The notes below the pieces were generated by a model. The model made no database searches. It had not been told where the DNA came from and saw only the letters and a program-made list of their open reading frames with translations. The translations under genes and the position numbers were made by a program. Source: a virus. Taken from it: a stretch of 23,118 nucleotides of DNA. The DNA is taken from positions 1-23,118 of IMG/VR virus record IMGVR_UViG_3300031951_001251; one strand, 5' to 3'. Shown here piece after piece: positions 98 through 20,808 of this stretch (within the stretch, counting starts at the first letter, position 1; every line of letters begins with the position of its first letter).

Positions 98-128
98 AAA
101 GAAAGGGAGCTCCGGCTCCCTTTTCTTT
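98..128. terminator. Bidirectional rho-independent terminator between converging operons
   Basis: A perfect 9-bp stem, AAAGGGAGC (102-110) with GCTCCCTTT (115-123), closes a TCCG tetraloop. It is flanked by A-rich sequence on the left and TTTTCTTT on the right, so it has a U-tract in both transcripts. The rightward stop codon (94-96) and the leftward stop codon (127-129) lie directly at its two edges. It should therefore end transcription from both sides. Confidence 0.9.
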
Positions 129-1560
129 ATCTTACTTTCTTTGCTATTCCCATATCAGTCCCAGCATTCGGCGGTGGCTGAATGACTTCCACACGAGAGG
201 GGTGGACAGTAGTAGATCCACCAACAACAACATTACTAACATCTCCGCCCTTTGGCTGTTGTGTTCTTTGCCTGACTTCTTCTGTGCTCTGTCTGGCCAT
301 ATCTAAATTACTTTTTAGTTGAGCAGCAGAAGGAGTCGCCCCGAAATTATTTCTGTCTTGTACCATCGCAGGACCAGTTATCCCTGCCATGTCAGTTCCA
401 AACAGTGCCGCGTCTGCTGCGAAACCTAATCCCGTACCGATGAAAGGAACTGACCCAGCGATACCACTGCCTAGCTCTAGTGCCGCACCAGCATAATCAC
501 CTTCTAAAGCACGTTGCCCAGCAAATACAGCGCCAAATCCCGCTCCGAGTAATGGAATCTTTTTGAGTACGCTCTTTAATCCAAACTTTTTTGCTGCTTT
601 CTCTGCGGCTTCGCGCTCTGCTGGAGTCTTTGTTGCGAGGTCATAGGCTTTATTACCAGCCAAAGCAGCACCACCAACCATACTAGTACCTTTTATTAAT
701 CCTTTAGCAAGTCCTCTTTCTGTGAGGGTAGATCCGATTTGATCTGTTCCCGTAGTATTTTCGCCAGCAGCTCTAGCCTTTTCCTCTGTCGTCATAAGAG
801 GTTCAATATCGACTCCAGGTATTTTATTTAATACTGAGATAATTGGGTTTATTACGAATCCTATGAACGCGTCTTTTATGGCTGTGAATAAACTGTTGAA
901 AAGATTTGTTATGGCATTTGATATTATTTCGACCAGTTTATCAAACATAAGTGAAGCCAACTCAGACAAACTTCCTCCAGCAGCGAAGAAGCCAATAAAG
1001 AATCCTAATAAAGGTGTAATCAATTTCATTAAGCCATCTTTAATAGTTCCAATTATGCCGCCAGAAGCTGCTGCCAATAAATTACTAGCTCCAGGTTTTT
1101 TGAAAGATGATTCTATATCTTTTTCTTTCAGAGATAGAGCATCTTTTTTGCTGAATTTTTCTTCTGCTTTCTGATCTTTTTCTACTGTTTTTCCAAAACT
1201 ATCTGGTAAAGCTCTTATTGCTTCCAAAGTAAGAAAACTGACTGCTACCAAAGTTTCCAGTGTGGTAAACAGTTTATCTTTATCACTAGTATCAGATTGT
1301 TCTGGTTTTATTTCTTCGGCAACAAGAACATTGTCAAACATCTGAGTAAATCGTGAACTCATTTCAGATAATCCTATGCTAATCTCATTTAGACTATTTG
1401 ATATACTTTGCATAGTATTCATGAATTCTTCAAAGCCAGGAACCATTTGTTGGTTGTCAGCAATAGCGTCCACGATTTCGCCTACTAGCACATTGTTGTC
1501 TAGTACCATCATTTCGTTTCTACCATATTCTGGTTTTGGTAATGCTGGCAACTCTGCCAT
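127..1560 (-). CDS. Probable tail tape-measure protein (T4 gp29 position)
   Basis: This 477-residue protein starts at ATG 1560 behind an AGGAG site (1567-1571) and ends at the shared terminator. Residues 40-75 look helical, 120-150 are highly charged, and about 160-245 hold several hydrophobic helices rich in Phe, Ile and Leu. A second Gly/Ala-rich hydrophobic part lies at about 330-400. Alternating helical and membrane-active segments are common in tape measures. The strongest argument is position: it directly follows a gp26 gene with a -1 frameshift extension, the slot held by the tape measure in lambda (G, GT, H) and P2 (E, E', T). At 477 residues it is shorter than T4 gp29 (about 590), which would imply a shorter tail. 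No diagnostic motif was recognised, so a hub or membrane-penetrating role remains possible. Confidence 0.55.
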   Translation of the reverse strand: MAELPALPKPEYGRNEMMVLDNNVLVGEIVDAIADNQQMVPGFEEFMNTMQSISNSLNEISIGLSEMSSRFTQMFDNVLVAEEIKPEQSDTSDKDKLFTTLETLVAVSFLTLEAIRALPDSFGKTVEKDQKAEEKFSKKDALSLKEKDIESSFKKPGASNLLAAASGGIIGTIKDGLMKLITPLLGFFIGFFAAGGSLSELASLMFDKLVEIISNAITNLFNSLFTAIKDAFIGFVINPIISVLNKIPGVDIEPLMTTEEKARAAGENTTGTDQIGSTLTERGLAKGLIKGTSMVGGAALAGNKAYDLATKTPAEREAAEKAAKKFGLKSVLKKIPLLGAGFGAVFAGQRALEGDYAGAALELGSGIAGSVPFIGTGLGFAADAALFGTDMAGITGPAMVQDRNNFGATPSAAQLKSNLDMARQSTEEVRQRTQQPKGGDVSNVVVGGSTTVHPSRVEVIQPPPNAGTDMGIAKKVR

Positions 1561-1562
1561 GT

Positions 1563-1766
1563 TTATCTCCTAGCTTTTCTTTGTTGTTCTTCCATTTTTT
1601 CTTTTTCTTCTTTTAGGTGTTCTATTAGCATATGCACATAGATATCTCTTTCGAATGGTATCCAACCTTCAATATCTGACATCGCATAATTATGGTGTTG
1701 CATCAAAGCAAAATTTGTTCTGTACCAGTTCGACAGACTATTGTAGCCTGTCGTTACCCGAAAAAA
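1563..1766 (-). CDS. -1 frame extension of gp26 (gp51-like / tape-measure chaperone C-terminal part), read by programmed frameshifting
   Basis: The gap between gp26 and the tape-measure gene is an open -1 frame that begins at the slippery site and ends at TAA 1563-1565. After the slip it adds 65 residues to 233 residues of gp26, giving a product of about 298. The extension contains MSDIEGWIPFERDIYVHM and a charged helical tail (EHLKEEKEKMEEQQRKARR). This resembles the short second product of tail assembly chaperones, where a W/F-P-F-E-R type motif is followed by a Lys/Glu helix, and from memory it resembles the gp51-like ORFs after gp26 in T4-like phages. An internal ATG exists (MQHHNY) but has no Shine-Dalgarno sequence. 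The stop overlaps the ribosome binding site of the downstream gene, which suggests coupling. Confidence 0.8.
   Translation of the reverse strand, partial: FFRVTTGYNSLSNWYRTNFALMQHHNYAMSDIEGWIPFERDIYVHMLIEHLKEEKEKMEEQQRKARR
1731..1766 (-). promoter_or_regulatory. -1 programmed ribosomal frameshift signal: slippery heptamer, spacer and hairpin
   Basis: On the minus strand the heptamer T TTT TTC lies at 1766-1760, exactly in phase with the gp26 frame (AGT TTT TTC GGG TAA). Six bases later (spacer 1759-1754, which includes the zero-frame stop) comes a 10-bp hairpin: CGACAGGCTA (1753-1744), loop CAA, TAGTCTGTCG (1740-1731). One pair is G-U in the minus-strand RNA, and the same site is an A-C mismatch on the plus strand, so the structure suits the transcribed strand. 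Slippery site, 6-nt spacer and strong stem match the standard architecture of -1 frameshifting. Confidence 0.85.
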
Positions 1767-2458
1767 CTTTGAATACCCTCTAGGGTCAATTCCCTAATGC
1801 TTCCATCTTTTCTCTTGTACGAAATGCTTGCTGTTATTTTTGGCAATCCTACGAAGAACTCCTGCATTTTTGCTAAGTCTTTTGTTCCTAAACTCATCAA
1901 CCAATCATCTAATTCCATTTTTGAGTATTCGGCAACGTCATATGCAGTTTCACCATCAAAGATTTGATCAATACTATCACGAATCATCATTAGAACAGTT
2001 TCTGCGCCGTTCATTTTGTTTTCGGCAATCAAAGAAAGAACTTCGTACGAAGGATATTTTAATACAACAGAAATAGGATCTGTCAATTTAATAAAACTAC
2101 CGACTTTTGGTTCAGACACAGATATATCTTTTTCCAAATCTAATTTTATTTTATATGTTTGATTATCTTGATCGTCTTCAACTGTTAGTTCCAGTACATT
2201 AGATACAGACTTAGCTCTTAACATCAGAAAAATATACTCTAAGTCAAAGTATGCTAGTTTATCAACATCTTTAATATCCAGAACACAGTTATTGATAATT
2301 TGTTTGTAGACATTGATAATGTCTTTCACTTCATTACTTTCTCTGGCTATTAAAACCAGTTTCTCTTCAGAAACGGTATATGGTCTGTAGCGGACAACTT
2401 CTTTAGTAGAAGGAATAGTCAGTTCGAAAATAGGTTGTTTAATTTTAGGTAAAGCCAT
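1754..2458 (-). CDS. 26: gp26-like baseplate hub / tail assembly protein (T4_baseplate family)
   Basis: The zero-frame product is 234 residues. It resembles the gp26 family (Pfam T4 bacteriophage base plate protein): a short N-terminal FELTIPST strand, the RYRPYTVSEEKLVLIA segment, a helical middle with YFDLEYIFLMLRAKSV, a beta middle part, and a C-terminal helix pair ending QSFFG. T4 gp26 is 208 residues and takes part in assembling the central hub. The start is placed at ATG 2456-2458 because GGAG lies 7 bases upstream; an in-frame TTG four codons earlier overlaps that GGAG and cannot be the start. Translation ends at TAA 1754-1756, two codons after a slippery heptamer, so some ribosomes should continue in the -1 frame. 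Confidence 0.85.
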   Translation of the reverse strand: MALPKIKQPIFELTIPSTKEVVRYRPYTVSEEKLVLIARESNEVKDIINVYKQIINNCVLDIKDVDKLAYFDLEYIFLMLRAKSVSNVLELTVEDDQDNQTYKIKLDLEKDISVSEPKVGSFIKLTDPISVVLKYPSYEVLSLIAENKMNGAETVLMMIRDSIDQIFDGETAYDVAEYSKMELDDWLMSLGTKDLAKMQEFFVGLPKITASISYKRKDGSIRELTLEGIQSFFG

Positions 2459-2482: not shown

Positions 2483-3604
2483 TTATGGGAAAGTTTTGGT
2501 AATACTCTTAATTAGATTCTTACCGTTGATAATAGTAGTATTTAGATTTCTTAGGGAAGATACTGCTGCTGAGTTGTTTCTGTCTGCTCCAACTATTCCT
2601 AGCAGAGCATCTAGTCTTCCTTGAGTTGAACCAGCATTTCTTAATAATCTAAAATTCGTTTGGAATTGCTTAATTCCTCTTAGTGTAGAATATGCGCTAT
2701 CGAGACCAGTTGTTACAGAGTTTACTAGATCTGATAATGTTCTACCAAAAGAAGCTTCTGTTTCCTGTGATGCGGTTTCATATGCAGATTTAGCATAATA
2801 ATGTTTTCCAAATTCATATTGATAGTCACCAAATGTATATTCGGCAGTTCTAAATGCCATTCTAACAGTGCATTTTGCAATCTGATCATCGTCTGCCCAA
2901 TCTAATTGAATCTGCCCGACCTCTATTGGAAATGCACCAAATAATTCACACTGAACAAGCGCATAACTATTTCCTGAAATGTTACGATCTGGTGCTGTTG
3001 GCGCGCCGATTGCTTTGGTTAATTCTCCACCTATACCACTTTCTTGTTGAATGTCCGCTTCATTTATAGAAGCAAATTGTGTGTATGGATCAGCCATGCC
3101 TGGATATTTTGATATCATAAAAATATTAAAGCTCGTTGCAATATAACTATTTTTGTATCTAGATACAGACGCGATATCTGGAAACCTATTACTATTAACA
3201 AAAATATAGTTTATCCACCTGTGAAATAATTCTAAAGAACTAGCGCGATCAGCATCAACATAAAATGTTAATTCTATATCATCAAATACTGAATCATATG
3301 GAGTTTTTATAGTTGGTCCATAACCGTGTGGTTTTGATTCTAGTGTGGTTAATCTTCTTCCTGGCATTTGTGCAGCACTACAGAGATATGCAACTTCTTG
3401 ATATCTCTCAATTGATAAATCACCAGGAGGAGTTAAAGACACAACAAAATTAGAAGTTCTTGCTAAATCGACTGATAAGAACTTTTGAGAAAAGAAATCT
3501 ACACTAAATCTATTAGTCGGAGCTGGAATTGTATCTCGCGTAACTTGTCCTCGTACTTTCACTTCATCGAGTACTTTGGGGGTTTGTGTTGCATCAGTAG
3601 CCAT
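2483..3604 (-). CDS. 54: Baseplate tail-tube initiator, gp54-like
   Basis: This 373-residue protein has the features of the tube-like fold of T4 gp54, which sits on the hub and gp48 and starts tail-tube polymerisation. Visible are an N-terminal strand (RTSNFVVSLTPPGDL), a loop with MPGRRL near residue 80, then YGPTIKTPYDSVFDDIELTFYV (split strands, about 95-116) and a helix (SSLELFHRWINYI, about 122-134). A second strand block follows (CELFGAFPIEVGQI and CTVRMAFR, about 215-255). The pattern of preferred loop, DxxV-type strands and a helix matches tail-tube proteins. The C-terminal 110 residues look helical and extend it beyond T4 gp54 (320 residues). Its ATG overlaps the previous stop (TAATG), so translation is coupled. 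A tail-tube paralogue is the alternative. Confidence 0.75.
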   Translation of the reverse strand: MATDATQTPKVLDEVKVRGQVTRDTIPAPTNRFSVDFFSQKFLSVDLARTSNFVVSLTPPGDLSIERYQEVAYLCSAAQMPGRRLTTLESKPHGYGPTIKTPYDSVFDDIELTFYVDADRASSLELFHRWINYIFVNSNRFPDIASVSRYKNSYIATSFNIFMISKYPGMADPYTQFASINEADIQQESGIGGELTKAIGAPTAPDRNISGNSYALVQCELFGAFPIEVGQIQLDWADDDQIAKCTVRMAFRTAEYTFGDYQYEFGKHYYAKSAYETASQETEASFGRTLSDLVNSVTTGLDSAYSTLRGIKQFQTNFRLLRNAGSTQGRLDALLGIVGADRNNSAAVSSLRNLNTTIINGKNLIKSITKTFP

Positions 3605-8182: not shown

Positions 8183-9121
8183 ATGAGAGATTTGACAAAT
8201 ACACCATATAATGAATTCGTCTGGTTCGTCGGAAGCATAGAAAGCATAGAAGATCCAGATAAACTCGGAAGAGTTAGAGTTCGTGCTTTTGGTTTTCACG
8301 ATGAGTTGACGCCAATTGATAAACTTCCATTAGCATTTATACTAGACGGAGCGACTCCGCCTGTTACTGGTGTTCAAACTGCAGTTGGCTTTTTCATGGA
8401 TGGAAAGTTAGCACAACAACCATTCATTCTTGGTCTAATGAATAGTACAGTATCATATCCAGGAAGAGTAGATTCTACTCCGACAGGAACAAAACCATCA
8501 ACGGCTTCTGGAAGAACTAGCCCAAGACCACAAACTGTTCCAAGTGATTCACCGCAACCAAACATACCAGAAGGACCAATTATCGTAGAAGATAATAAAG
8601 AGTTCTGGACATTGGTTGCCATTTGCGGAACAGAAGACGGAGATAGACAATCATGGGCAGACGTAGCACAAAGTATTTACAACAGAATGAATGCTGGAGT
8701 ATTTGGTGGGTCAACTGCTACTGGTGTGATATTAGCTAGAAACCAATATCAGCCAACATGGCTTCTTCCACAACTTAGATCCCCGAACACTAAGACTCAA
8801 GGATCTCCTAATAGAGAATGGACTAACATAAACAACATAGCTGATGCAGCACGAGCGACTAATCAATCACAACAATATTTACTTGGTGTGGCTAGAGCGA
8901 TTAAAGATCAAGGATTACAAAATAATGCTAAAGCGTTTGTTAAAACCTATACAGATTTTCTTGGAAAATCTCAGGTATCAATATGGTGGAAAACAGATTT
9001 TGGTTTTGCACGAAGAAGCCCCAACAATAATAGATTCGCATTTCGCAAAGATAGTAGTTATACAGGTGCTGCTGGCCAAGGACCAATTCCTGGTTTTGTA
9101 ATCGCTGCAGTAATAGAATAA
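8183..9121 (+). CDS. gp5-type spike OB-fold protein fused to a SleB-like cell-wall hydrolase
   Basis: Residues 1-95 form the gp5/gpV OB domain: MRDLTNTPYNEFVWFVG, then DPDKLGRVRVRAFGFH, and AQQPFILG at the end. A Pro/Ser/Thr linker follows (about 95-135). The C-terminal 175 residues resemble cell-wall hydrolases of the SleB type (Hydrolase_2): an acidic GTEDGD with Glu151 in the catalytic position, WADVAQSIYNRM, TGVILARNQYQPTW, and a late WWKTDFGFARR segment. The likely role is cutting peptidoglycan during tail penetration. T4 gp5 has a lysozyme in the equivalent place. The N-terminus is nearly the same as in the next gene, so the two arose by duplication. The start sits 2 bases after the hub stop with no clear Shine-Dalgarno. 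Confidence 0.7.
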   Translation: MRDLTNTPYNEFVWFVGSIESIEDPDKLGRVRVRAFGFHDELTPIDKLPLAFILDGATPPVTGVQTAVGFFMDGKLAQQPFILGLMNSTVSYPGRVDSTPTGTKPSTASGRTSPRPQTVPSDSPQPNIPEGPIIVEDNKEFWTLVAICGTEDGDRQSWADVAQSIYNRMNAGVFGGSTATGVILARNQYQPTWLLPQLRSPNTKTQGSPNREWTNINNIADAARATNQSQQYLLGVARAIKDQGLQNNAKAFVKTYTDFLGKSQVSIWWKTDFGFARRSPNNNRFAFRKDSSYTGAAGQGPIPGFVIAAVIE

Positions 9122-9129
9122 ATATACTT

Positions 9130-10068
9130 ATGAGAGACTTAACAAACACACCATACAAACAATTTATCTGGTTTATTGCAGAGATTGTTGAAACTAATAC
9201 GGATCCAAATAAACTTGGTCGTGTCCGAATTCGCGTACTCGGGTTTCATTCAGAAGATACTCCCAGAGATAAATTACCTTTGGCTTTAGTAATGAATGGT
9301 GGCGCAGCAAGACTAGTAGAAAAACAATGGGTTGTCGGTTTCTTTTTAGATGGAGCAATGGCACAGCAGCCATTTGTCTTAGGCACTGTCGGTTCTGCTA
9401 TCGGTAATTCTGCTAAAGTAAACTCGCAAGAAAATCCAGGTCCAAATGAAGATAGAACAAAAGGAACTCCGAAGTCTTTGTTGCAGCAGGTTGAAGATGC
9501 TAAAGAAAAATTAAGAAGAGCAATAGTTGCAGGCGGTGATGTCGTAGGTGCTAAGGAAGATCTGGATAAACTGGAAGCTAAACTTAAAGCTGCGGAGGCA
9601 GCTGAAGCTGCCAAACAAAGATTAAAAAAAGTCACGCCAACAACGCCACCCGCAGCTTTTGGGAACATTGATCCTCGACTAGAGGGTACCAATGGTTACC
9701 TTGACGAATCTAAATTAGTTAAAGTATCAAGCAATCAGAAATTAGATGCACCTGCTGCTGCAGCTTATCAGAGCATGGTAGCAGCTGCTGAAGCAGATGG
9801 AATAAGATGGTCGATAACTGACTCATACCGAAATTATGCGCAACAGGTTGATGTTGCTAACAGAAAAGGCTTATATGAAGACGGCGGATTGGCAGCAAGA
9901 CCTGGCACATCAAGGCACGGATGGGGTAGAGCACTGGATCTTGGCGGAGGTGCAGAGAACTTCGGCACACCGCAAAATAACTGGCTTCAACAAAATGCAG
10001 GGAAGTTTGGTTTCAAAACGATTGCAGGAGAACCTTGGCACTGGCAGTGGGAACCGCCTAAGAACTGA
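9130..10068 (+). CDS. gp5-type spike OB-fold protein fused to a VanY-like D-Ala-D-Ala carboxypeptidase/endopeptidase
   Basis: Residues 1-90 repeat the OB domain of the preceding gene (MRDLTNTPYKQFIWFIAE, DPNKLGRVRIRVLGFH, AQQPFVLG). Residues about 115-165 are an Ala/Lys/Glu coiled coil. Residues about 200-312 are a peptidase M15 (VanY) domain: SITDSYRNYAQQ, then SRHGWGRALDLG with zinc ligands His263 and Asp270, and GEPWHWQWE with Glu301 as general base and His304 as third ligand. It should cleave the peptide stems of peptidoglycan. Length equals that of its neighbour (312), but the enzyme is unrelated. No Shine-Dalgarno is seen before the ATG, which lies 9 bases after the previous stop. Confidence 0.88.
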   Translation: MRDLTNTPYKQFIWFIAEIVETNTDPNKLGRVRIRVLGFHSEDTPRDKLPLALVMNGGAARLVEKQWVVGFFLDGAMAQQPFVLGTVGSAIGNSAKVNSQENPGPNEDRTKGTPKSLLQQVEDAKEKLRRAIVAGGDVVGAKEDLDKLEAKLKAAEAAEAAKQRLKKVTPTTPPAAFGNIDPRLEGTNGYLDESKLVKVSSNQKLDAPAAAAYQSMVAAAEADGIRWSITDSYRNYAQQVDVANRKGLYEDGGLAARPGTSRHGWGRALDLGGGAENFGTPQNNWLQQNAGKFGFKTIAGEPWHWQWEPPKN

Positions 10069-10089
10069 GTATATAGGATAATTTAATAA

Positions 10090-11157
10090 ATGACAAAGAC
10101 ACCATCACAAATTCTTGACGATATTAAAAATACTGCATTAGATTCTACTTCTAAGGTATTTTTAGACACGGGCATTTTTAATGATAAGGAATTATTAAAA
10201 GATCCAACCGCAGCGATCGGTATTGTACAATCTCAAGTAAATGGGCTTTTGAGTAAAGGTGTCTCTATAGAAAATATAGGAATTGTCGGGCTAAACGAAG
10301 CATTTCCTGATTTGAATGCAGAACTTGAAGGATTATGTGAAACTCTCGGTTGCGCATTCGGTGGTGAATTATCTGGTATTATTCCGGATAATTCATATTT
10401 TGCTTCGTTAAATAGAACAATTGATAATGTTGGTGCAATTAAAAACTCATTAGAATCAGCAGAATTGCCGTCAGATATATTGACAAAGTTATCTGTTCTA
10501 AACAAATATACAGCCCCAGTTGATGGCAAAGAGACTGAAGATGGTGAACCTCTAATTAAATTTCCTGATACGTTTATTCCGGAAGAAAGACCACAAGGTT
10601 CTGGTCGAGGAAAAACACCAATTTCTGATTGGCGCGATAGAAGCCGTGTGGTTACAGAAACAGCTGGCTCTTCTGGTGCGCAATCCTGGGCTGAGAGCAA
10701 TAGTCAGTTCGGAGCAATCTATGGTAAGAACATTGTTTATAAATCTAACTTTGGTCATTTTATTGAGCTGGATGATTCGGAAGGAGCCGAGCGAGTAAAC
10801 ATATATCACAAAAATGGTACGTTTATTACGTTGATGCCAGACCAATCAATTGTTATGCGCGCTCAGGGTGGATTACAACAAGTAACATATGCAAATAATG
10901 ACATATTTGTAAAAGGAAACATTAACATTACAGTAATGGGTGACACTAACATTTCTACAAATGGTGACACAAATATTGATACTGTTGGTGATGTAAATTG
11001 GAGAGTTGGTGGCGATTTTAATTTAGATGTGACTGGCGATACGTTTATGGCTAATCGCGGTGATATTAAAATGACTGCAAGGCAGATTCGTCAGAACGCT
11101 GGAGATCCGCGTGTTCTTGATGATGTAAAAGAAAAAACATACAAATTTGATTCTTAA
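10090..11157 (+). CDS. 5: Baseplate spike needle, gp5 C-terminal beta-helix as a separate protein
   Basis: This 355-residue protein has a helical N-terminal part (1-140), a Pro/Gly/Arg linker (about 165-195), and a C-terminal part from about 210 like the gp5 triple-stranded beta-helix. From about residue 273 there are six to seven octads with Gly at every eighth place (KGNINITV, MGDTNIST, NGDTNIDT, VGDVNWRV, GGDFNLDV, TGDTFMAN). This matches the VxGxxxxx octad of the T4 gp5 needle. No lysozyme or OB domain is present; these lie in the two genes upstream. In T4 a single gp5 is cleaved between lysozyme and needle, whereas here the parts are separate genes. The upstream AGGA probably serves as ribosome binding site. 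Confidence 0.8.
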   Translation: MTKTPSQILDDIKNTALDSTSKVFLDTGIFNDKELLKDPTAAIGIVQSQVNGLLSKGVSIENIGIVGLNEAFPDLNAELEGLCETLGCAFGGELSGIIPDNSYFASLNRTIDNVGAIKNSLESAELPSDILTKLSVLNKYTAPVDGKETEDGEPLIKFPDTFIPEERPQGSGRGKTPISDWRDRSRVVTETAGSSGAQSWAESNSQFGAIYGKNIVYKSNFGHFIELDDSEGAERVNIYHKNGTFITLMPDQSIVMRAQGGLQQVTYANNDIFVKGNINITVMGDTNISTNGDTNIDTVGDVNWRVGGDFNLDVTGDTFMANRGDIKMTARQIRQNAGDPRVLDDVKEKTYKFDS

Positions 11158-11815: not shown

Positions 11816-13609
11816 ATGGCGACCAACGGATTCTTAAACAATACTCAATTAGATTTTGCATCATATAAACAAAGTCTAAAAACATATTTAAGTCAACAAA
11901 CTCAATTTAGAGATTATGACTTTGAAGGTTCTAACTTGTCAGTCTTGCTAGACTTACTTGCATATAACACATATCACAACGCCATGTATCTAAACATGAT
12001 TGGCAGTGAGATGTTCTTAGATACCGCGCAGCTTCGCGAATCAATTATCTCGCATGCGAAAGAATTAAACTATACTCCACGTTCAAGATCTGCTTCTAGA
12101 ATAGAAGTAGACATTGTTGCTTCCGTAAATAATAGCGTGTCGCCAGATACAATAACACTTCCGAATAATTATAGAATTAGTGGTACTGCGAACAACGGGT
12201 TAGTCTATAATTTTTATACTAAAGAACCTGTAATATTGGAATCATCTAACAGTTATAGTGTTTCTAATGTTTTCTTTTACGAAGGTTCTTTGAAAACAGA
12301 AGCATTCTTAGTATCTTCTGCCAACGCACAATTTGTAATTAATTCTAGCAATGTTGATACTAGCACAGTTTCTGTAACAGTTCAAAAATCATCAACAGAA
12401 GCAGTATTTACAACATGGAATAGAAGCGAAGAACTATTTAATCTAAATGCAAATAGCGAAGTATTCTTTGTTCAGGGATACAGAGATTTTCAGTATTCGA
12501 TTACATTTGGCAATGGTGTCGTTGGTAAACAGCTAACACCAGGAAACATATTGCTTGTAAGCTACATAGAAACTAATGGCGTGGATGCTAATTACACCTC
12601 GACATTTTCTACTGTAGAATCTGTAGATATTTTCCCAGCTAATACATTTTCGCTAGTGTATTCTGGTTCTTCTTATGGCGGAGCATATGCTGAAGATAAT
12701 GATTCTATTCGTTATAATGCGATTCGTGGATTTACTAATCAAAATCGCGCTATTACTGCAGAAGATACAATATCATTGCTTAAAGCTAATTTCCCGTCTA
12801 TTGAAACTGTAGTCGCGTATGGCGGAGAAGAAGCCACACCAAAACGCTATGGTAAAATTGTTATCTCGGCGAAACCAGTTGGATCAGAATTATTATCAGA
12901 ATCTCTAAAGAACGAGATAGTCGATTTTCTATCTGATAAAACATCATTATCCGTAGAACCACTAATTGTAAATCCAGAGTATTTTTATCTTGATATTGCC
13001 TCTCGCGTCAAATACAACATAAATCAAACCACAAAAACTTATTCTCAGTTAGTATCAAATGTTGTGACTGCAATTACAGCGTTTAATACCAGTTATCTTT
13101 CTGATTTCGGTTCGGATTTAAGATTTTCTAAACTTTCTGCTGCAATCGATGCCGCTGATGTTTCGATCATTTCTAATGATACACAAGTTAGAATTAGCAA
13201 AAGAATTACACCATCTCCTGGCGTAAGTTATTCAGAAACATGGAGTTTTGAAAATCAACTACATAGTGAAAATGTCAGATATGTTTTACCAATTGGTCAC
13301 GAACCAATCGTATCTTCGAGCGCGTTCGTTTATGATGGTTATACTGCGTATCTACAAGATAATGGTAATGGAGTTTTGCAAGTTTATACTACGATAAATG
13401 GTTTGTCAACGATTCTTGCAACAGTTGGATCAGTAAACTATGATACAGGTGTTATTTCTATAACAGGATTAAACGTAGATTCTTATTCAACAGATAGCAT
13501 TAAGATTTATGCAAGAACAGAAAATGCTGATATAGATACTTTGACTAATAAAATTCTTCTTATTGATGCAGAAGATATTAGCGTTACAATGACTGGAATT
13601 AGAATCTAA
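11816..13609 (+). CDS. 6: Baseplate wedge protein gp6 (baseplate J family)
   Basis: This 597-residue protein (T4 gp6 660) opens with the characteristic block FRDYDFEGSNLSVLLDLLAY, NTYHNAMYLNMIGSEMFLD and QLRESIISHAKELNYTPRSR. A baseplate-J-like middle follows (FGNGVVGKQLTPGNILLVSY; then DNDSIRYNAIRGFTNQNRAI, VVAYGGEEATPKRYGKIVIS). The last ~120 residues form a beta-rich end domain. gp6 dimers link neighbouring wedges and form the inner baseplate ring. AGGA lies 12 bases before the ATG, inside the gp25 end. Its stop overlaps the gp7 start (TAATG). Confidence 0.95.
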   Translation: MATNGFLNNTQLDFASYKQSLKTYLSQQTQFRDYDFEGSNLSVLLDLLAYNTYHNAMYLNMIGSEMFLDTAQLRESIISHAKELNYTPRSRSASRIEVDIVASVNNSVSPDTITLPNNYRISGTANNGLVYNFYTKEPVILESSNSYSVSNVFFYEGSLKTEAFLVSSANAQFVINSSNVDTSTVSVTVQKSSTEAVFTTWNRSEELFNLNANSEVFFVQGYRDFQYSITFGNGVVGKQLTPGNILLVSYIETNGVDANYTSTFSTVESVDIFPANTFSLVYSGSSYGGAYAEDNDSIRYNAIRGFTNQNRAITAEDTISLLKANFPSIETVVAYGGEEATPKRYGKIVISAKPVGSELLSESLKNEIVDFLSDKTSLSVEPLIVNPEYFYLDIASRVKYNINQTTKTYSQLVSNVVTAITAFNTSYLSDFGSDLRFSKLSAAIDAADVSIISNDTQVRISKRITPSPGVSYSETWSFENQLHSENVRYVLPIGHEPIVSSSAFVYDGYTAYLQDNGNGVLQVYTTINGLSTILATVGSVNYDTGVISITGLNVDSYSTDSIKIYARTENADIDTLTNKILLIDAEDISVTMTGIRI

Positions 13610-16600
13610 TGAAAGATATTGAGAAATTAATTTCTCCCTTAATCGAAAGTCAATTTCCTTCAGTTTATCGTGATGAGGGAGCGACGTTTGTTGCTTTCGT
13701 AAAAGCATATTTTGAATGGTTAGAACAAACTAATGGAGTTGCATATGATTCTCGCCGACTCCCAGAATATCGCGATATCGATACTACCTTAGATAAATTT
13801 GTAGACGAATTTAGAAAAAAATATATGCACGGTATCCCAAAAGATATTGCTGCAGATAAACGTCTACTACAAAAACACATTAAAGAATTATATTCTTCCA
13901 AAGGAACAGAGCGTGGTTTAGAACTGTTGTTCCGCATATTGTTTAATGAAGATATTAATGTTTATATTCCTGGAGCTGACGTACTTCGCGCTTCTGACGC
14001 GCAGTGGTTAGTTCCAAGATACTTAGAATTAGAATACAATGTAAATATCGGTTCGTATGTTGGTAAAACAATCACTGGTCGCATATCTGGTGCGACAGCA
14101 TTCGTAGACGAATATAAAACATTTGTAACTGGTAACAAGCGCCACGATATTCTTTATATTACTGATATCGTAGGAACATTTGCTGCAAACGAAGAAATCA
14201 TAAACACAGACGTTATAGATGATCTGGGTATTGAAGTCACATCTAGCCCAAGAGTACGTGGTTCTTTAATTGGCATTGATGTGCGCGGTAGTTCTACTGG
14301 ATTTTCTCTTGGCGAAGTTGTTGATGTTTCTGGTGTCGGTGAAGATGGTCAAGCGATTGTAACGAGCCTTGAAAGTTTGCAGGGTGTTGTTAGTTTTGAT
14401 ATTATAAATGGCGGAACTGGTTTTACTTTGACAGCATCTGAAACAATTACACCATCAGGTAATGCGCCATCTATCGCTGCTTCTTTTAATATCGGTTCTC
14501 TAAGCAATACAAGTACAATTGATCTAACTTCTACACCAATTACTAATGCGCTTAGTATTCAAATTAATGCTCCAGCGCCAGCATATACTGCATTTTCAGC
14601 GAACGCAGCTGCCGATTGGCTGACTCCGTTTAATGGTATTTTTGTTCTAAACACCTATACATATGGCACAATTGCTACATTGACAGACATTAATCCTGGT
14701 AAAGGATATAATGCCAATGTTGCAGTATCTGTTGTTGATAATTTAATTTATCCACTTCGAATCTCTGATGGCGCTGGTGGATTTCTTGGCTATAACGCAA
14801 ACATTGCTGGCTTTGCTGGTATCGGAGATGGCGCAGCCAAAACAGTTGCAATTTATAATTCTGGTTTTGGTTATACTAATAATACGACAGTTTCTTTAAC
14901 TAGCGTTTCTAATTCTTCTCACGTTGCTACAGGAACAATTAATGCTGTCGGTCAAGGTAAAGGCGAAGGATACTTCAAATCTACTCGCGGTTTCCTAAAC
15001 TCTGACAAGTATATTCACGACAATTATTATTACCAAGAATATTCCTACGAAGTTCAAGCTGTTACCGCATTTAACAAGTATTCTAGCATTCTTCGTGACT
15101 TGTGGCACCCAGCTGGTATGGAGAAATTTGGTAGAACATTAATTCAATCTGTTCCCGTTTCTCGCGGAACCACCCTAGAAGCTTTAATTGAATACCTAGA
15201 CACTCAGTATCTAACCTCTACTTCTACAACTCTTACAACTTCTACTGGTATTACAACAAGCAGATTTACAGAAACTGTTGGCGCGACCACAATTGCGACA
15301 GAGTATCTCACCACATCTGCATACGGAACTTCGTTCATAACTAAGCGCGAAACTGCTATTGATACTACGTTTGAGACAGCCATATCGACCTCGACACTTA
15401 CTGCGTTCTCAACGTTAATTACTACTGCAACTGCAATTGACACTGCTGTTGGAACAATCTTTTATACAAATACAACGTATACTGGCCAAGAAACCAGAGC
15501 AACTGCTACGACTAAGAGTACAGCTACAGTATATGATACCAATAGAACAACTACGTTTGCTACTGCGTATGCGACTGGCACATCTAAAACAACTACAACC
15601 AGCTATGCTACTTTAGCAGGTGTTTCTGCTACTAACTTCCAAACATCTGTTGTAACTAACTTTTTTACAACAACTGTATTTGATACAAGTATAACTGCAG
15701 ATACAACATATGAAACATTTGCCAGCGCCAGCGGTTTTGTAAATCAGATTAGAGCCATAGAAGATGCTGAGTCAAAAGGATTTACGATAGAAGATTGTGA
15801 ATTTCTTAACGACGCTCCTCCTGGTGTATGGACTTACTATTGTTCTAAAGAAATTACGATTTCTGAAATTACCAAAGTTGCAACATCTAAAAGCACAGGT
15901 ATCAACTCAAGTTATTCTACCACATATGATACCGTTTTCAATACAAGTGGTGGAACTCTGGTCAATACAACAATTGACACGACCACGAAATACAATACTG
16001 ATACTACAATTGATACAACTCGTACTACGAAGTTTAATACCAGTCTGTCCACAACAACAACGTACGACACAAATACGTTAGTAGATACAGCCATAACAAT
16101 TGATACTCTACCAGTAACTGCTATTGTTACCAGCTACTTTACGAATACGACTACCACGTTCAATACGACGACAGTATTCCAAACATCTTCTGTGTTTAAC
16201 ACAACAACTTCATATCAGACAGACTCTGGAGCAGGTACACTAATTAATACCTCTAAGACCACAGCGACTGATATTTTAACGAATACTAGTAAAGCAACAT
16301 CAACGGACAGATCCACTAGAACTTCTGGCGTAACAACAACTGTATTCTTAACAGCATACGCGACTGCTGTTGCTACTACAACTGCGTATGTAACTTCAAC
16401 GACCACCAAATATGATACAACCTACAGTACCATATCTGGAACTGGTATTGGTTCAACAACATTCGAAACCAGCAAAGTAACAGCAACTGCTCCTGATACA
16501 ACTAAAAATACTGAAAAGTTTACTGCTACTGTTTACATGACAAATAGATTAACTACTATTGACACTATAAAAATGTCAGGCGGTACATATTATGAAACCA

Positions 16601-19600
16601 GTATATTGACGGAATTCGCGACGTATTACAATACCAAGTTTAAGGATACTACCCGCGATACAACGTTGAATACGGATGTTACTACAGATGTTACTACCTT
16701 AACAAATAAACAAACAAATATTACGACCAAATATGTAACTTCTAAAACACGTAATATTCAAACATATTTTACAACTGGCGAAGTACTAACCACAGTTGTA
16801 ACTTCTTATGCAACTGATAAAGATACTTCTAAGTCGACGGATACATTTAAACAAACTGCGCTTAGTACAAAATATTCAACTGCAGTTGCAACGGAAACAG
16901 GTACTTCGAAGTCTACAGACGCTACAACTGAATACTTGGTTGATACAAATTATAGAACTGCCAAGTACACCGATTCAGCATTCGCCACTAATTTCTTAAC
17001 AGCGACTGCGTTGTATACTTCTACAACGATTGACACTAACAAAGCAACTCAAACGTCAAAATCTACTGCATATGGTACTGGTAAAACGACCACGACTGCA
17101 TACGATACAACAACGACATTTGTCACTGCAACAAGTAAATCTACGTCATCAGTTTTTGACACTATAACTGCATACGCTACATCGACTAATAGATCTACAA
17201 CAAGTACATTTAATACGACGACAGCATATGCAACAGCTACCAGTAAATCTACGACTTCGGTATTTAACACTACTACCGTATTTGATACAGCAATCGCGAC
17301 TTCAACAGTGTTTAATACTGACACAGTAATTAACACCGATACGCTTTTATTTACTGATACAAATCGTTCTACTAAGCGTCTAACTAACTCGGTTTACGAT
17401 ACCTCGACAGCGTATGCCACGACAACTTCTTATACTACGAAATATGACACGTTGTTTGATACATTTTTTAGCACCGATACTTCAAAGATCACCGAACGCG
17501 ATACCTCTACAAGTAGAGAAACTTCTGGTTCGACAGCAACTAGCAGGATAACTGTCACTGGTTCTGGATTCTTAACATCAACAACATTTAACACGACTTT
17601 TGATACTGCTTATCAGACTATTTTCTCAACACAAACTTCTGCGTTGACAGCAACTAGTAAGTCAACTGACACTGTCGGTGCGACTTCTAAAGCAACAGCA
17701 ACTTCAAAATCAACGACCACGTTGTTTAATACATCTACAATATACGGAACAACTGTAGGAACTGATACTACTGTTAATACGACAAAAGCTACAAGCACAA
17801 ATATTCTAACAAGCAAAGCAACCGACACATCTAAAGAAACTTCAAAATCTACTGATACTACGATCTCTACTGTATTTGATACAACAACGACGTATTTGAC
17901 TCAGATCGGTACTAACAGATTTACTAGTACGTCAAAAAGCACAACGACTGCATTTAATACAGCTTATGCGACTACAACTGCATATGATACAACTACGACT
18001 TTCATAACTGTGTTTGACACTACTACAACGTTTAATACTACAACAACGTTTAACACTGCGTATGCTACAACGACGGCATTTAATACAACGTATGCGACAT
18101 CAACCGTGTTTAACACGACTGGCGCTACAAGCAAAACCACAGATACCAGCAGATCGACCGTGTTTGGTACAACTACGGTATTTAATACATTGTATGCGAC
18201 ATCAACTGTGTTTAACACGACTGGCGCTACAAGCAAAACCACAGATACGAGTAGATCTACAATATTCGGTACAACCACAACGTTTAATACGTTGTATGCT
18301 ACAACCACAACTTTTATTACAGCATTTGCTACGACGTCGATATTCAATACTTCGTATGCTACGACAACTAATTTTGATACCACACAAGGTACATCAAAAG
18401 CAACAGATACATCTAGAACTACTACGTTTGATACAACTGGTTCTACAAGTAAATCCACTGACACCAGCCAATCGACAGTATTTAATACCAATAATAGCAC
18501 GTCTAGAGCAACAGGAACTTCTGGAGGCACAACGACTGCGTTTAATACCACGACAGCGTTTGTAACAACATTTGATACTTCTCAAGGAACTTCAAGAGTA
18601 ACCGAGACTTCGCGTGGAACAACTACTGTGTTTGCTACAAGTACTGCGTTTGTTACAATATTTGCGACAACAGGTTCAACTTCTGCAGCAACAGCTACGT
18701 CAAAATCAACTTCGACTGTGTATGCAACATTTTATCTTACAGAATTTTTAGATGGTAAACAATCAGTTTTTGAAGAAACAAGTAGAGACACATCTGCATC
18801 TACATCAACTGTGTATAATACAACCACGATATTTAATACCTCGGGTGATACTTCACAAGGTACATCACGGAACACTGATACTTCTCGTGGAACTACAACT
18901 GGATTTGGCACCACGACCGCATTTAATACAGTGTTCGCAACTAGTGCGACGACTTCCAGAGCAACAGGAACTTCTGGAGGCACAACGACTGCGTTTGATA
19001 CCACGACTACTTTTATAACTACATTTGATACTTCTAAAACAACTACGTTTAGTACAACAACAACATTCAGCACAGTATTTGGTACTTCTAGACCTACCAC
19101 CTTTAGTACAACTACCGCTTATACGACTGCATTTAACACAAGCAAAGCTACTGATACAACTGTCAGCACTAGTAGGTCAACCGATACAACACAATCGACT
19201 TCTAAAGCTACTGATACAACTGTCAGCACTAGTAAGTCGACGGACACTAACAGAACTACGACATTCGGCACGACCACAGCGTTCAACACAACGTTTGACA
19301 CTAACAAAGCAACAGATACAACCGTGTCAACTAGTAAGTCGACGGATACTTCAAGAGCTACAACGTTTGGTACAACAACTGCGTTTAATACAACGTTTGA
19401 CACTAACAAAGCAACAGATACCATATTATTGACTTTGAAAGCTACTGATACAATAATTTCTACTTCTAAAGCTACGTCAACTTCTAAGGCGACAGAAACA
19501 GCAGCGTTTACTTCAAAAGCAACAGGTACCTCTAAGTCTACAGATACAGTAATTGGTACTTCTAAATCAACTACCAGCGTATTTGATACATCTACTGCGT

Positions 19601-20808
19601 TTGAAACAGCTTATGATACTAACAAAGCCACCGCGACCTCGCGCGCGACCGCATACGCAACGACAACTGGATTTGCCACAATATATGCAACGCTAACGAC
19701 ATATGTTAGTGTGTTTGACACAACGACTGCATTTAATACAGTTTATGCGACAGGTTCAACTTTTGATACTTCGGCTCTAACTGGAACAAGTAAATCAACT
19801 ACTTCAGTGTTCGATACCACGACTGCGTTTAACACAACGTTTGCGACATCGACTGTGTTTGATACCACTACTGCGTTCCAAACGAATACTTCAAAAGATA
19901 CAGCTATCTCGACAACTGGTTCTACTAGCAAATCGACTTTGACAGTCTTATCAACAAGTACTCAATTTAATACTTTGACTACATTTGCCACAGTCTATAA
20001 CACTCAGTCACTTTTCTCTACTACTTTCTTGACAACGACGAGCAGAGGCACTACTTTTGAGACCACGAAGGGAACATCAAAAACTACGGACACAACAATA
20101 AACACTGCTACTATTGTTCAGACTGATTCTGTTTTCTCGACCGTTTATGCGACCGCTACTGTTTATGGAACAAGCACTGCATTTGCTACAGCGACCAGTA
20201 TACTAACCGATACTAAGATTGCTACGAATATAGCGACTGCAACTTCTAAGTCGACCTCGACTGTATTCAATACAGATACTGCTATTGATACCGCTACAAC
20301 CAAGTCCACCAGTACGGTGTTTGATACTGATACTACCAAAGTTACTGCAACTTCTACATCTACTTCTACAGTATTTAATACCGATACGACTAATTCTACT
20401 GCCACAAGTAAATCTACTTCATCAGTATTTGATACCACAGTTACAACTGCATTTAATACCGACACAAGTATTTCAACAACTTATGCTACGCAGACTAAGA
20501 GCCTAACCACCATCATAACAACATATGATACTGCTCTAAATACTACAGTTTCTACTAAAGTTGATACTTTAACAAGTAAAAATACAACGAAGAATACATC
20601 GTTCTATACAGATACGCTGTTTAATTTGACTGGAACTGTGTTGAACGCTACACAATATACAACGGCTCGTTCTACTGACCTTAGCACTCAGAAGTCTACA
20701 TCAACCGCTATAAATACTTCGTCAGCCACTGCTTATGTAACAGTTGTTGACACCGATACGATTTTTGACACCGTCTATGACACGGTGGTAAATACCGAAC
20801 CAACATAA
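13609..20808 (+). CDS. 7: Giant gp7-like baseplate wedge protein with a ~1,865-residue Thr-rich repeat fibre
   Basis: 2399 residues. The N-terminal ~530 residues correspond to the conserved C-terminal core of T4 gp7 (1032 residues): LYSSKGTERGLELLFRILFN matches T4 YSTKGIEASYKFLFKVLYNE, YVGKTITGRISGATAFVDEY matches its LVGQTIYTATGRCNVTYIER segment, and ILRDLWHPAGMEKFG matches VIRFVHPVGFGF. The order gp6-this-gp8 is that of T4. Residues about 220-460 are an inserted beta-rich part with Gly-x-Gly-aromatic motifs. From about 533 to the end the protein is roughly 40% Thr (hand-sampled), in a two-residue alternation with hexads. One non-repetitive island lies at 705-756 with Cys730 and Cys745, and a smaller one at about 1708-1724. 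In T4, gp7 lies at the wedge rim, so the repeat may project as a fibre. Confidence 0.88.
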   Translation: MKDIEKLISPLIESQFPSVYRDEGATFVAFVKAYFEWLEQTNGVAYDSRRLPEYRDIDTTLDKFVDEFRKKYMHGIPKDIAADKRLLQKHIKELYSSKGTERGLELLFRILFNEDINVYIPGADVLRASDAQWLVPRYLELEYNVNIGSYVGKTITGRISGATAFVDEYKTFVTGNKRHDILYITDIVGTFAANEEIINTDVIDDLGIEVTSSPRVRGSLIGIDVRGSSTGFSLGEVVDVSGVGEDGQAIVTSLESLQGVVSFDIINGGTGFTLTASETITPSGNAPSIAASFNIGSLSNTSTIDLTSTPITNALSIQINAPAPAYTAFSANAAADWLTPFNGIFVLNTYTYGTIATLTDINPGKGYNANVAVSVVDNLIYPLRISDGAGGFLGYNANIAGFAGIGDGAAKTVAIYNSGFGYTNNTTVSLTSVSNSSHVATGTINAVGQGKGEGYFKSTRGFLNSDKYIHDNYYYQEYSYEVQAVTAFNKYSSILRDLWHPAGMEKFGRTLIQSVPVSRGTTLEALIEYLDTQYLTSTSTTLTTSTGITTSRFTETVGATTIATEYLTTSAYGTSFITKRETAIDTTFETAISTSTLTAFSTLITTATAIDTAVGTIFYTNTTYTGQETRATATTKSTATVYDTNRTTTFATAYATGTSKTTTTSYATLAGVSATNFQTSVVTNFFTTTVFDTSITADTTYETFASASGFVNQIRAIEDAESKGFTIEDCEFLNDAPPGVWTYYCSKEITISEITKVATSKSTGINSSYSTTYDTVFNTSGGTLVNTTIDTTTKYNTDTTIDTTRTTKFNTSLSTTTTYDTNTLVDTAITIDTLPVTAIVTSYFTNTTTTFNTTTVFQTSSVFNTTTSYQTDSGAGTLINTSKTTATDILTNTSKATSTDRSTRTSGVTTTVFLTAYATAVATTTAYVTSTTTKYDTTYSTISGTGIGSTTFETSKVTATAPDTTKNTEKFTATVYMTNRLTTIDTIKMSGGTYYETSILTEFATYYNTKFKDTTRDTTLNTDVTTDVTTLTNKQTNITTKYVTSKTRNIQTYFTTGEVLTTVVTSYATDKDTSKSTDTFKQTALSTKYSTAVATETGTSKSTDATTEYLVDTNYRTAKYTDSAFATNFLTATALYTSTTIDTNKATQTSKSTAYGTGKTTTTAYDTTTTFVTATSKSTSSVFDTITAYATSTNRSTTSTFNTTTAYATATSKSTTSVFNTTTVFDTAIATSTVFNTDTVINTDTLLFTDTNRSTKRLTNSVYDTSTAYATTTSYTTKYDTLFDTFFSTDTSKITERDTSTSRETSGSTATSRITVTGSGFLTSTTFNTTFDTAYQTIFSTQTSALTATSKSTDTVGATSKATATSKSTTTLFNTSTIYGTTVGTDTTVNTTKATSTNILTSKATDTSKETSKSTDTTISTVFDTTTTYLTQIGTNRFTSTSKSTTTAFNTAYATTTAYDTTTTFITVFDTTTTFNTTTTFNTAYATTTAFNTTYATSTVFNTTGATSKTTDTSRSTVFGTTTVFNTLYATSTVFNTTGATSKTTDTSRSTIFGTTTTFNTLYATTTTFITAFATTSIFNTSYATTTNFDTTQGTSKATDTSRTTTFDTTGSTSKSTDTSQSTVFNTNNSTSRATGTSGGTTTAFNTTTAFVTTFDTSQGTSRVTETSRGTTTVFATSTAFVTIFATTGSTSAATATSKSTSTVYATFYLTEFLDGKQSVFEETSRDTSASTSTVYNTTTIFNTSGDTSQGTSRNTDTSRGTTTGFGTTTAFNTVFATSATTSRATGTSGGTTTAFDTTTTFITTFDTSKTTTFSTTTTFSTVFGTSRPTTFSTTTAYTTAFNTSKATDTTVSTSRSTDTTQSTSKATDTTVSTSKSTDTNRTTTFGTTTAFNTTFDTNKATDTTVSTSKSTDTSRATTFGTTTAFNTTFDTNKATDTILLTLKATDTIISTSKATSTSKATETAAFTSKATGTSKSTDTVIGTSKSTTSVFDTSTAFETAYDTNKATATSRATAYATTTGFATIYATLTTYVSVFDTTTAFNTVYATGSTFDTSALTGTSKSTTSVFDTTTAFNTTFATSTVFDTTTAFQTNTSKDTAISTTGSTSKSTLTVLSTSTQFNTLTTFATVYNTQSLFSTTFLTTTSRGTTFETTKGTSKTTDTTINTATIVQTDSVFSTVYATATVYGTSTAFATATSILTDTKIATNIATATSKSTSTVFNTDTAIDTATTKSTSTVFDTDTTKVTATSTSTSTVFNTDTTNSTATSKSTSSVFDTTVTTAFNTDTSISTTYATQTKSLTTIITTYDTALNTTVSTKVDTLTSKNTTKNTSFYTDTLFNLTGTVLNATQYTTARSTDLSTQKSTSTAINTSSATAYVTVVDTDTIFDTVYDTVVNTEPT
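15721..15876 (+). other. Non-repetitive 52-residue island with two cysteines inside the Thr-rich array
   Basis: Residues 705-756 of the gp7-like protein break the Thr pattern completely. They contain FVNQIRAIEDAESKGFTIED, then CEFLNDAPPGVWTYYC and SKEITISEITK. Cys730 and Cys745 are 15 apart, with PPGVW between them. It may be a small folded domain between two repeat segments. No family was recognised. Confidence 0.75.
18091..18294 (+). repeat. Tandem 102-bp direct repeat within the Thr-rich array
   Basis: Two units (18091-18192 and 18193-18294) encode nearly the same 34 residues, YATSTVFNTTGATSKTTD onwards to FNTL. The first ~55 bases are almost identical in DNA, including synonymous positions, while the rest has drifted. 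Confidence 0.9.
18505..18996 (+). repeat. Dispersed 39-bp exact direct repeat in the Thr-rich array
   Basis: The same 39 bases occur at 18505-18543 and 18958-18996, in frame and 453 bp (151 codons) apart. They encode RATGTSGGTTTAF, and the match continues after one mismatch (TACCACGAC). Confidence 0.9.
19144..19421 (+). repeat. Nested 60-bp and 102-bp direct repeats in the Thr-rich array
   Basis: A 31-base exact match links 19144-19174 and 19204-19234 (60 bp apart). A 29-base exact match links 19291-19319 and 19393-19421 (102 bp apart). Both encode the KATDTTVSTSKSTDT / FGTTTAFNTTFDTNKATDT type unit. Confidence 0.88.

Follow-up and report, generated by a model that had tools for sequence, protein, structure and literature searches.

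The question raised by this locus is whether gene 26 of a T4-like phage ends only at its own stop codon, or whether the gap that follows it encodes the end of a second, longer form of the same protein. The window analyzed here is the whole of a 23,118-base virus fragment (IMGVR_UViG_3300031951_001251, positions 1 to 23,118), which carries a T4-like tail and baseplate module with genes for head closure, DNA end protector, tail tube, baseplate tail-tube cap and wedge proteins. From sequence comparison we infer slippage, fusion and a chaperone role: gene 26 and the adjoining gap very probably form a tail assembly chaperone pair expressed by -1 frameshifting.

Gene 26 and the reading frame beyond its stop

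The features of the locus, in the order in which they are read, are as follows.

2483..3604, minus strand: tail tube protein gene, upstream of gene 26 (PHROG 45 tail tube, E=9e-32)
1754..2458, minus strand: gene 26 (0 frame), 234 aa, predicted chaperone short form (TAC-N), from ATG 2458 to TAA 1756-1754
1563..2458, minus strand: inferred 298-aa gp26-gp51 fusion (TAC-NC) via -1 frameshifting, based on conservation; aligns with the single-ORF gp51 of SW69-9 and T4
1776..1780, minus strand: Shine-Dalgarno-like GAGGG, proposed 5' stimulator (codon bias); its GAGG ends 10 nt upstream of the heptamer
1760..1766, minus strand: slippery heptamer T TTT TTC in X XXY YYZ phase, found in 129 of 132 distinct junctions as T TTT TTC or T TTT TTT
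1754..1756, minus strand: 0-frame stop TAA, one codon past the heptamer, read directly from the sequence
1731..1753, minus strand: RNA hairpin of 10 bp (one G-U) with a CAA loop, proposed 3' stimulator (folding z-scores; compensatory changes)
1563..1760, minus strand: -1 frame ORF of 65 codons plus stop, C-terminal gp51 domain (TAC-C) (PHROG 634, E=2.9e-26; dN/dS 0.096; all-helical AlphaFold2 model)
127..1560, minus strand: next gene, 477 aa, tape-measure candidate and putative chaperone client (weak match to PHROG 1068, E=6e-5; position as lambda H)

Gene 26 has a Shine-Dalgarno sequence, GGAG, upstream of its ATG at 2458, and its product belongs to PF12322 (T4_baseplate, E=2.3e-50) and also matches PHROG 150 (E=9e-65). 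The 3' end of the gene reads GAG GGT ATT CAA AGT TTT TTC GGG TAA. An earlier note on this DNA described a T TTT TTC heptamer in exact phase, a 6-base spacer and a 10-bp hairpin with a CAA loop, and each of these is present: the heptamer at 1766-1760, the spacer as GGGUAA, and the hairpin at 1753-1731, where 1753-1744 pairs with 1740-1731 and includes one G-U pair. The open -1 frame claimed for the gap is likewise there, extending from 1793 to TAA 1565-1563 and leaving 65 codons after the slip, with the next ATG at 1560. The Shine-Dalgarno-like element upstream of the heptamer was absent from that note and was found in this analysis. Dinucleotide shuffling produced an equally long open frame in 22 of 5000 trials. 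In-phase X XXY YYZ heptamers number 15 in the window's genes, and in no internal case does the open -1 stretch exceed 31 codons; at the one other T TTT TTC among them it is 3 codons long.

The -1 frame peptide matches PHROG 634 (gp51, 'baseplate hub assembly catalyst') with E=2.9e-26 and aligns with the C-terminus of T4 gp51. Calling it a "gp51-like" domain was thus too cautious, as this is a genuine gp51 domain. A Pfam search with the C domain gave nothing above the cut-off, and the PHROG 150 match of the fused 298-aa product spans nearly its whole length.

Structures of gp26 and the C domain were predicted with AlphaFold2 as separate chains. The gp26 model (pLDDT 92.6) matches many predicted phage gp26 proteins. 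Chaperones with solved structures include HK97 gp13, YqbN and Rbstp2171; in Foldseek the similarity of the gp26 model to Rbstp2171 (3FGX), identified as a chaperone (PMC9603447), is weak (probability 0.54, E=1.5, 53 columns). The C domain is modeled as all-helical (pLDDT 86), and Foldseek comparison of this model with the PDB returned nothing significant. No meaningful relative emerged when solved structures were searched with profiles from the alignments of gp26 and of the fusion.

Conservation of the register, the frame and the proposed stimulators

Searching with the fusion by tblastn recovered most of its length in ~500 phage records, usually in two pieces and mostly in cyanophages. The relatives gathered comprise 42 viral contigs found by protein, 80 found by alignment, 32 assembly contigs and ~20 annotated phages; L027 and L043, in which the gp26 frame is disrupted, were excluded as probable assembly or indel errors. 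The earlier note had proposed looking among relatives for stops in the second frame or departures from the -1 register, and its expectation held: the two parts lie in the -1 register in 162 of the 164 loci having both, and 160 related loci in this register supply 132 distinct junctions. Of the other two, L043 has a gp26 frame broken upstream, and in Aeromonas phage SW69-9 the gp51 gene is a natural fusion within one ORF.

At the 132 distinct junctions the heptamer is T TTT TTC in 67, T TTT TTT in 62, and T TTT TTA or TTG in 3, nearly always no more than 3 codons from the gp26 stop. Phe-Phe is invariant at the junction, so the control chosen was Phe-Phe elsewhere in these genes: of 134 such pairs, 7 are encoded by the heptamer. 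This slip site is shared by T4-like phages of Synechococcus, Prochlorococcus, Methylophilales, Stenotrophomonas, Caulobacter, Sinorhizobium, Agrobacterium, Vibrio, Aeromonas and Nitratidesulfovibrio. Because of relatedness among the sequences, the counts overstate independence; their direction is consistent throughout all the same.

Vibrio phage K362 (L060, 3070-3280) has an open -1 frame after gp26, but its junction, TCA CTT TTC AAG TAA, lacks a canonical heptamer, and another slip site may serve there. A contig in a Robiginitomaculum assembly (L143) carries G TTT TTT A in place of T TTT TTY, similar to the GTTTTT motif reported for Vandenendeviridae.

Within the window clade the -1 frame has a dN/dS of 0.096, compared with 0.87 for the continued gp26 frame and 2.04 for the third frame, and differences in the -1 frame concentrate at third positions (905/347/1503). 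Across the family the frames are open and the C domain retains a P-x-E-R-x-x-Y core together with other residues. These substitution patterns indicate that the -1 frame is protein-coding and under purifying selection.

The Glu codon at the Shine-Dalgarno-like site is GAG in 61 of 79 (77%) distinct junctions, versus 27% elsewhere in the genes (Fisher p=1e-19), and matches of at least 4 nt to a Shine-Dalgarno sequence are found in 72% at the site versus 20% in the background. Judged by this codon bias, the GAGG upstream of the slip site is maintained through codon choice. For the hairpin, the 67-nt stretch that contains it has a minimum free energy of -17.3 kcal/mol (z -2.5 versus dinucleotide shuffles), and z is -4.2 against synonymous recodings that preserve the -1 protein. 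In the window clade (13 distinct junctions), both sides have changed at 4 of 10 pairs; covariation is 0.474 versus 0.260 in shuffled alignments, was as high in 0 of 500 shuffles and is lost when the pairing partner is slid, with the alternation mostly between two groups and thus not representing many independent events. Covariation in the window clade and codon bias together indicate that both stimulatory elements, hairpin and GAGG, are under selection.

The hairpin is not universal. Folding falls in the best 5% relative to synonymous recodings at 44 of the 132 junctions, many distant relatives being without a hairpin, and such best-5% hairpins accompany 33 of 67 T TTT TTC sites versus 10 of 62 T TTT TTT sites (Fisher p=8e-5). 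A search of 1500-2600 against Rfam at E up to 1 gave no match.

Could the gap instead hold a small gene of its own, with gp51 initiated separately by reinitiation or coupling after gene 26? This is how gp51 is annotated in S-CAM3, S-PM2, P-HM2, Melnitz and DLP_6, and some relatives have an ATG directly after the gp26 stop. In the window, however, no ATG, GTG or TTG lies ahead of the conserved C-domain block or would keep the domain whole; the first ATG in the -1 frame (1703) is 19 codons in and, unlike the true starts at 2458 and 1560, is without a Shine-Dalgarno sequence. Likewise, at 72 of the 132 junctions no ATG, GTG or TTG precedes or coincides with the beginning of the C domain. A separate start would also give no reason for the heptamer to be in phase and nearly invariant, for the register to be constantly -1, or for T4 to have a full-length N+C protein, and we regard it as very unlikely.

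The frame could also be shifted by RNA polymerase slipping on the T run, rather than by the ribosome, given that every site has such a run and that some bacterial genes slip on runs of about nine A or T (PMC5009743). The runs at these junctions are nevertheless short and capped, with exactly 6 T in 67 of 67 T TTT TTC sites and 7-8 T in 62 of 62 T TTT TTT sites; because they stay below the approximately nine described for bacteria (PMC5009743), transcriptional slippage is less likely still. The Shine-Dalgarno-like and hairpin elements, at fixed distances, are moreover stimulators of ribosomes. Least likely of all is a reading in which gp26 is the sole product and the -1 ORF a remnant, decayed or incidental; it is at odds with the dN/dS of 0.096, the excess of third-position differences and the open frames with a P-x-E-R-x-x-Y core in relatives.

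A predicted chaperone pair and its counterparts

Under ribosomal frameshifting, gene 26 together with the gap that follows would constitute one tail assembly chaperone gene with two decodings. The majority of ribosomes would terminate at TAA 1756 to give gp26, of 234 aa. A fraction would slip by -1 on U UUU UUC, where both tRNA-Phe could re-pair with UUU UUU, aided by the GAGG 10 nt upstream and the hairpin 6 nt downstream; these ribosomes would read 65 more codons to give the 298-aa gp26-gp51 protein. If the roles are as in lambda gpG/gpGT, the numerous short copies could coat the tape-measure protein, and the rarer long copies could recruit tail-tube or baseplate subunits via the C-terminal helical domain. 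A short/long tail assembly chaperone pair is, on this analogy, the most likely function.

Lambda gpG/gpGT and its P2-like counterpart (PMC5009743) likewise combine a short chaperone with a rare -1 extension, and their coding region lies between the genes for tail tube and tape measure. The order on the minus strand of the window is tail tube, then gp26/51, then the tape-measure candidate (the last by a weak match, E=6e-5). The link to lambda G/GT drawn in the earlier note gains support from this gene order and from T4 gp51, which is the N+C form in one frame. The lambda heptamer is different, and sequence similarity between the two systems was not detected here. The elements of the signal (a 5' Shine-Dalgarno sequence, an X XXY YYZ heptamer and a 3' stem-loop) are the same as in E. 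coli dnaX (PMC5009743), but the two are not homologous. The dnaX heptamer is A AAA AAG and the shift there gives a shorter protein, whereas in the window the heptamer is U UUU UUC and the shift would give a longer one. In E. coli, U UUU UUU and U UUU UUA are less shift-prone than A AAA AAG (PMC5009743).

T4 gp51 and SW69-9 gp51 are the same N+C protein as the predicted fusion, with PF12322 and the same C-terminal extension. Both phages encode gp51 in a single frame and have next to it a distinct gp26 gene that is transcribed divergently; no frameshift is needed. The whole N part is thus common to the long and the short form, via the -1 frame in the predicted product of the window and in one frame in T4 and SW69-9. 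Since T4 gp51 is N+C in a single frame and gp26 is separate, the window would obtain by frameshifting the outcome that T4 reaches with two genes.

T4 gp26 and gp51 were long listed as hub assembly chaperones, with the function of gp51 unknown (PMC3004832), and a 2016 review described the lambda-type frameshift as a widespread, conserved feature of long-tailed phages 'except T4' (PMC5009743). The earlier note presented the chaperone pair as new, which it is not. According to the papers that cite Vladimirov, Gautam and Davidson (2022, Virology 566:9-15), gp26/gp51 of T4-like phages are tail assembly chaperones (PMC10885494, PMC12846349), separate short and long genes replace the frameshift in some T4-like phages (PMC10885494), and poly-T -1 signals in the chaperone genes are known (PMC12846349). 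These chaperones are of the same family as those of the window (PF12322 N part, gp51 C part), with a frameshift in the window and two genes in T4 itself. In the Vandenendeviridae phage Adele, a conserved poly-T -1 site with the motif GTTTTT links a chaperone with an ORF, unannotated or hypothetical, that precedes the tape measure (PMC12846349), a paper that does not assign the chaperone to the gp26/gp51 family. As both the chaperone concept and the poly-T -1 signals are published, our finding therefore falls within the known T4-like chaperone frameshifts. We found no report of the Shine-Dalgarno-like element, the hairpin covariation or the link between hairpin and heptamer type in the literature examined, which includes Vladimirov 2022 as represented by citing papers.

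We lean slightly towards a broader reading, in which a dnaX-type arrangement at gene 26 (Shine-Dalgarno-like GAGG, U UUU UUY and hairpin) would be the ancestral state of the T4 superfamily, and T4 gene 26 with its single-frame gene 51 would be derived by duplication and fusion. The stimulators would then be tuned to the heptamer, U UUU UUC tending to have a hairpin and U UUU UUU mostly not. If the site works as predicted, T4 gp26 and gp51 represent one chaperone in a short and a long form, and most T4-superfamily phages obey the general tail-chaperone frameshift rule, of which T4 was long the stated exception (PMC5009743).

Annotation is affected as well. The fusion had been called unannotated, which describes some relatives, such as the ACG-2014j gap, but not others, which carry gp51 as a separate, usually N-terminally truncated gene. 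With gp51 truncated, separate or missing in many T4-like and cyanophage records, a joined CDS with a -1 shift would be the remedy. In the cyanophage record ACG-2014j (L176, 2215-2398), the gp51 domain lies in a 184-nt unannotated gap, despite the presence of T TTT TTC and the -1 ORF.

Two other regions of the window, both on the plus strand, also drew attention. At 8183-11157 a gp5-type hub lysozyme is represented by three ORFs. Two of these gp5-type ORFs share one N-terminal domain, both beginning MRDLTNTPY; the C part of the second matches a tape-measure PHROG, and the third ORF carries the C-terminal part of gp5. At 13609-20808 there is a 2,399-aa ORF with an N-terminus that resembles a baseplate protein by eye, after which short degenerate repeats of the type TTTAFNTTTVFDT form a very long, Thr/Ser-rich array.
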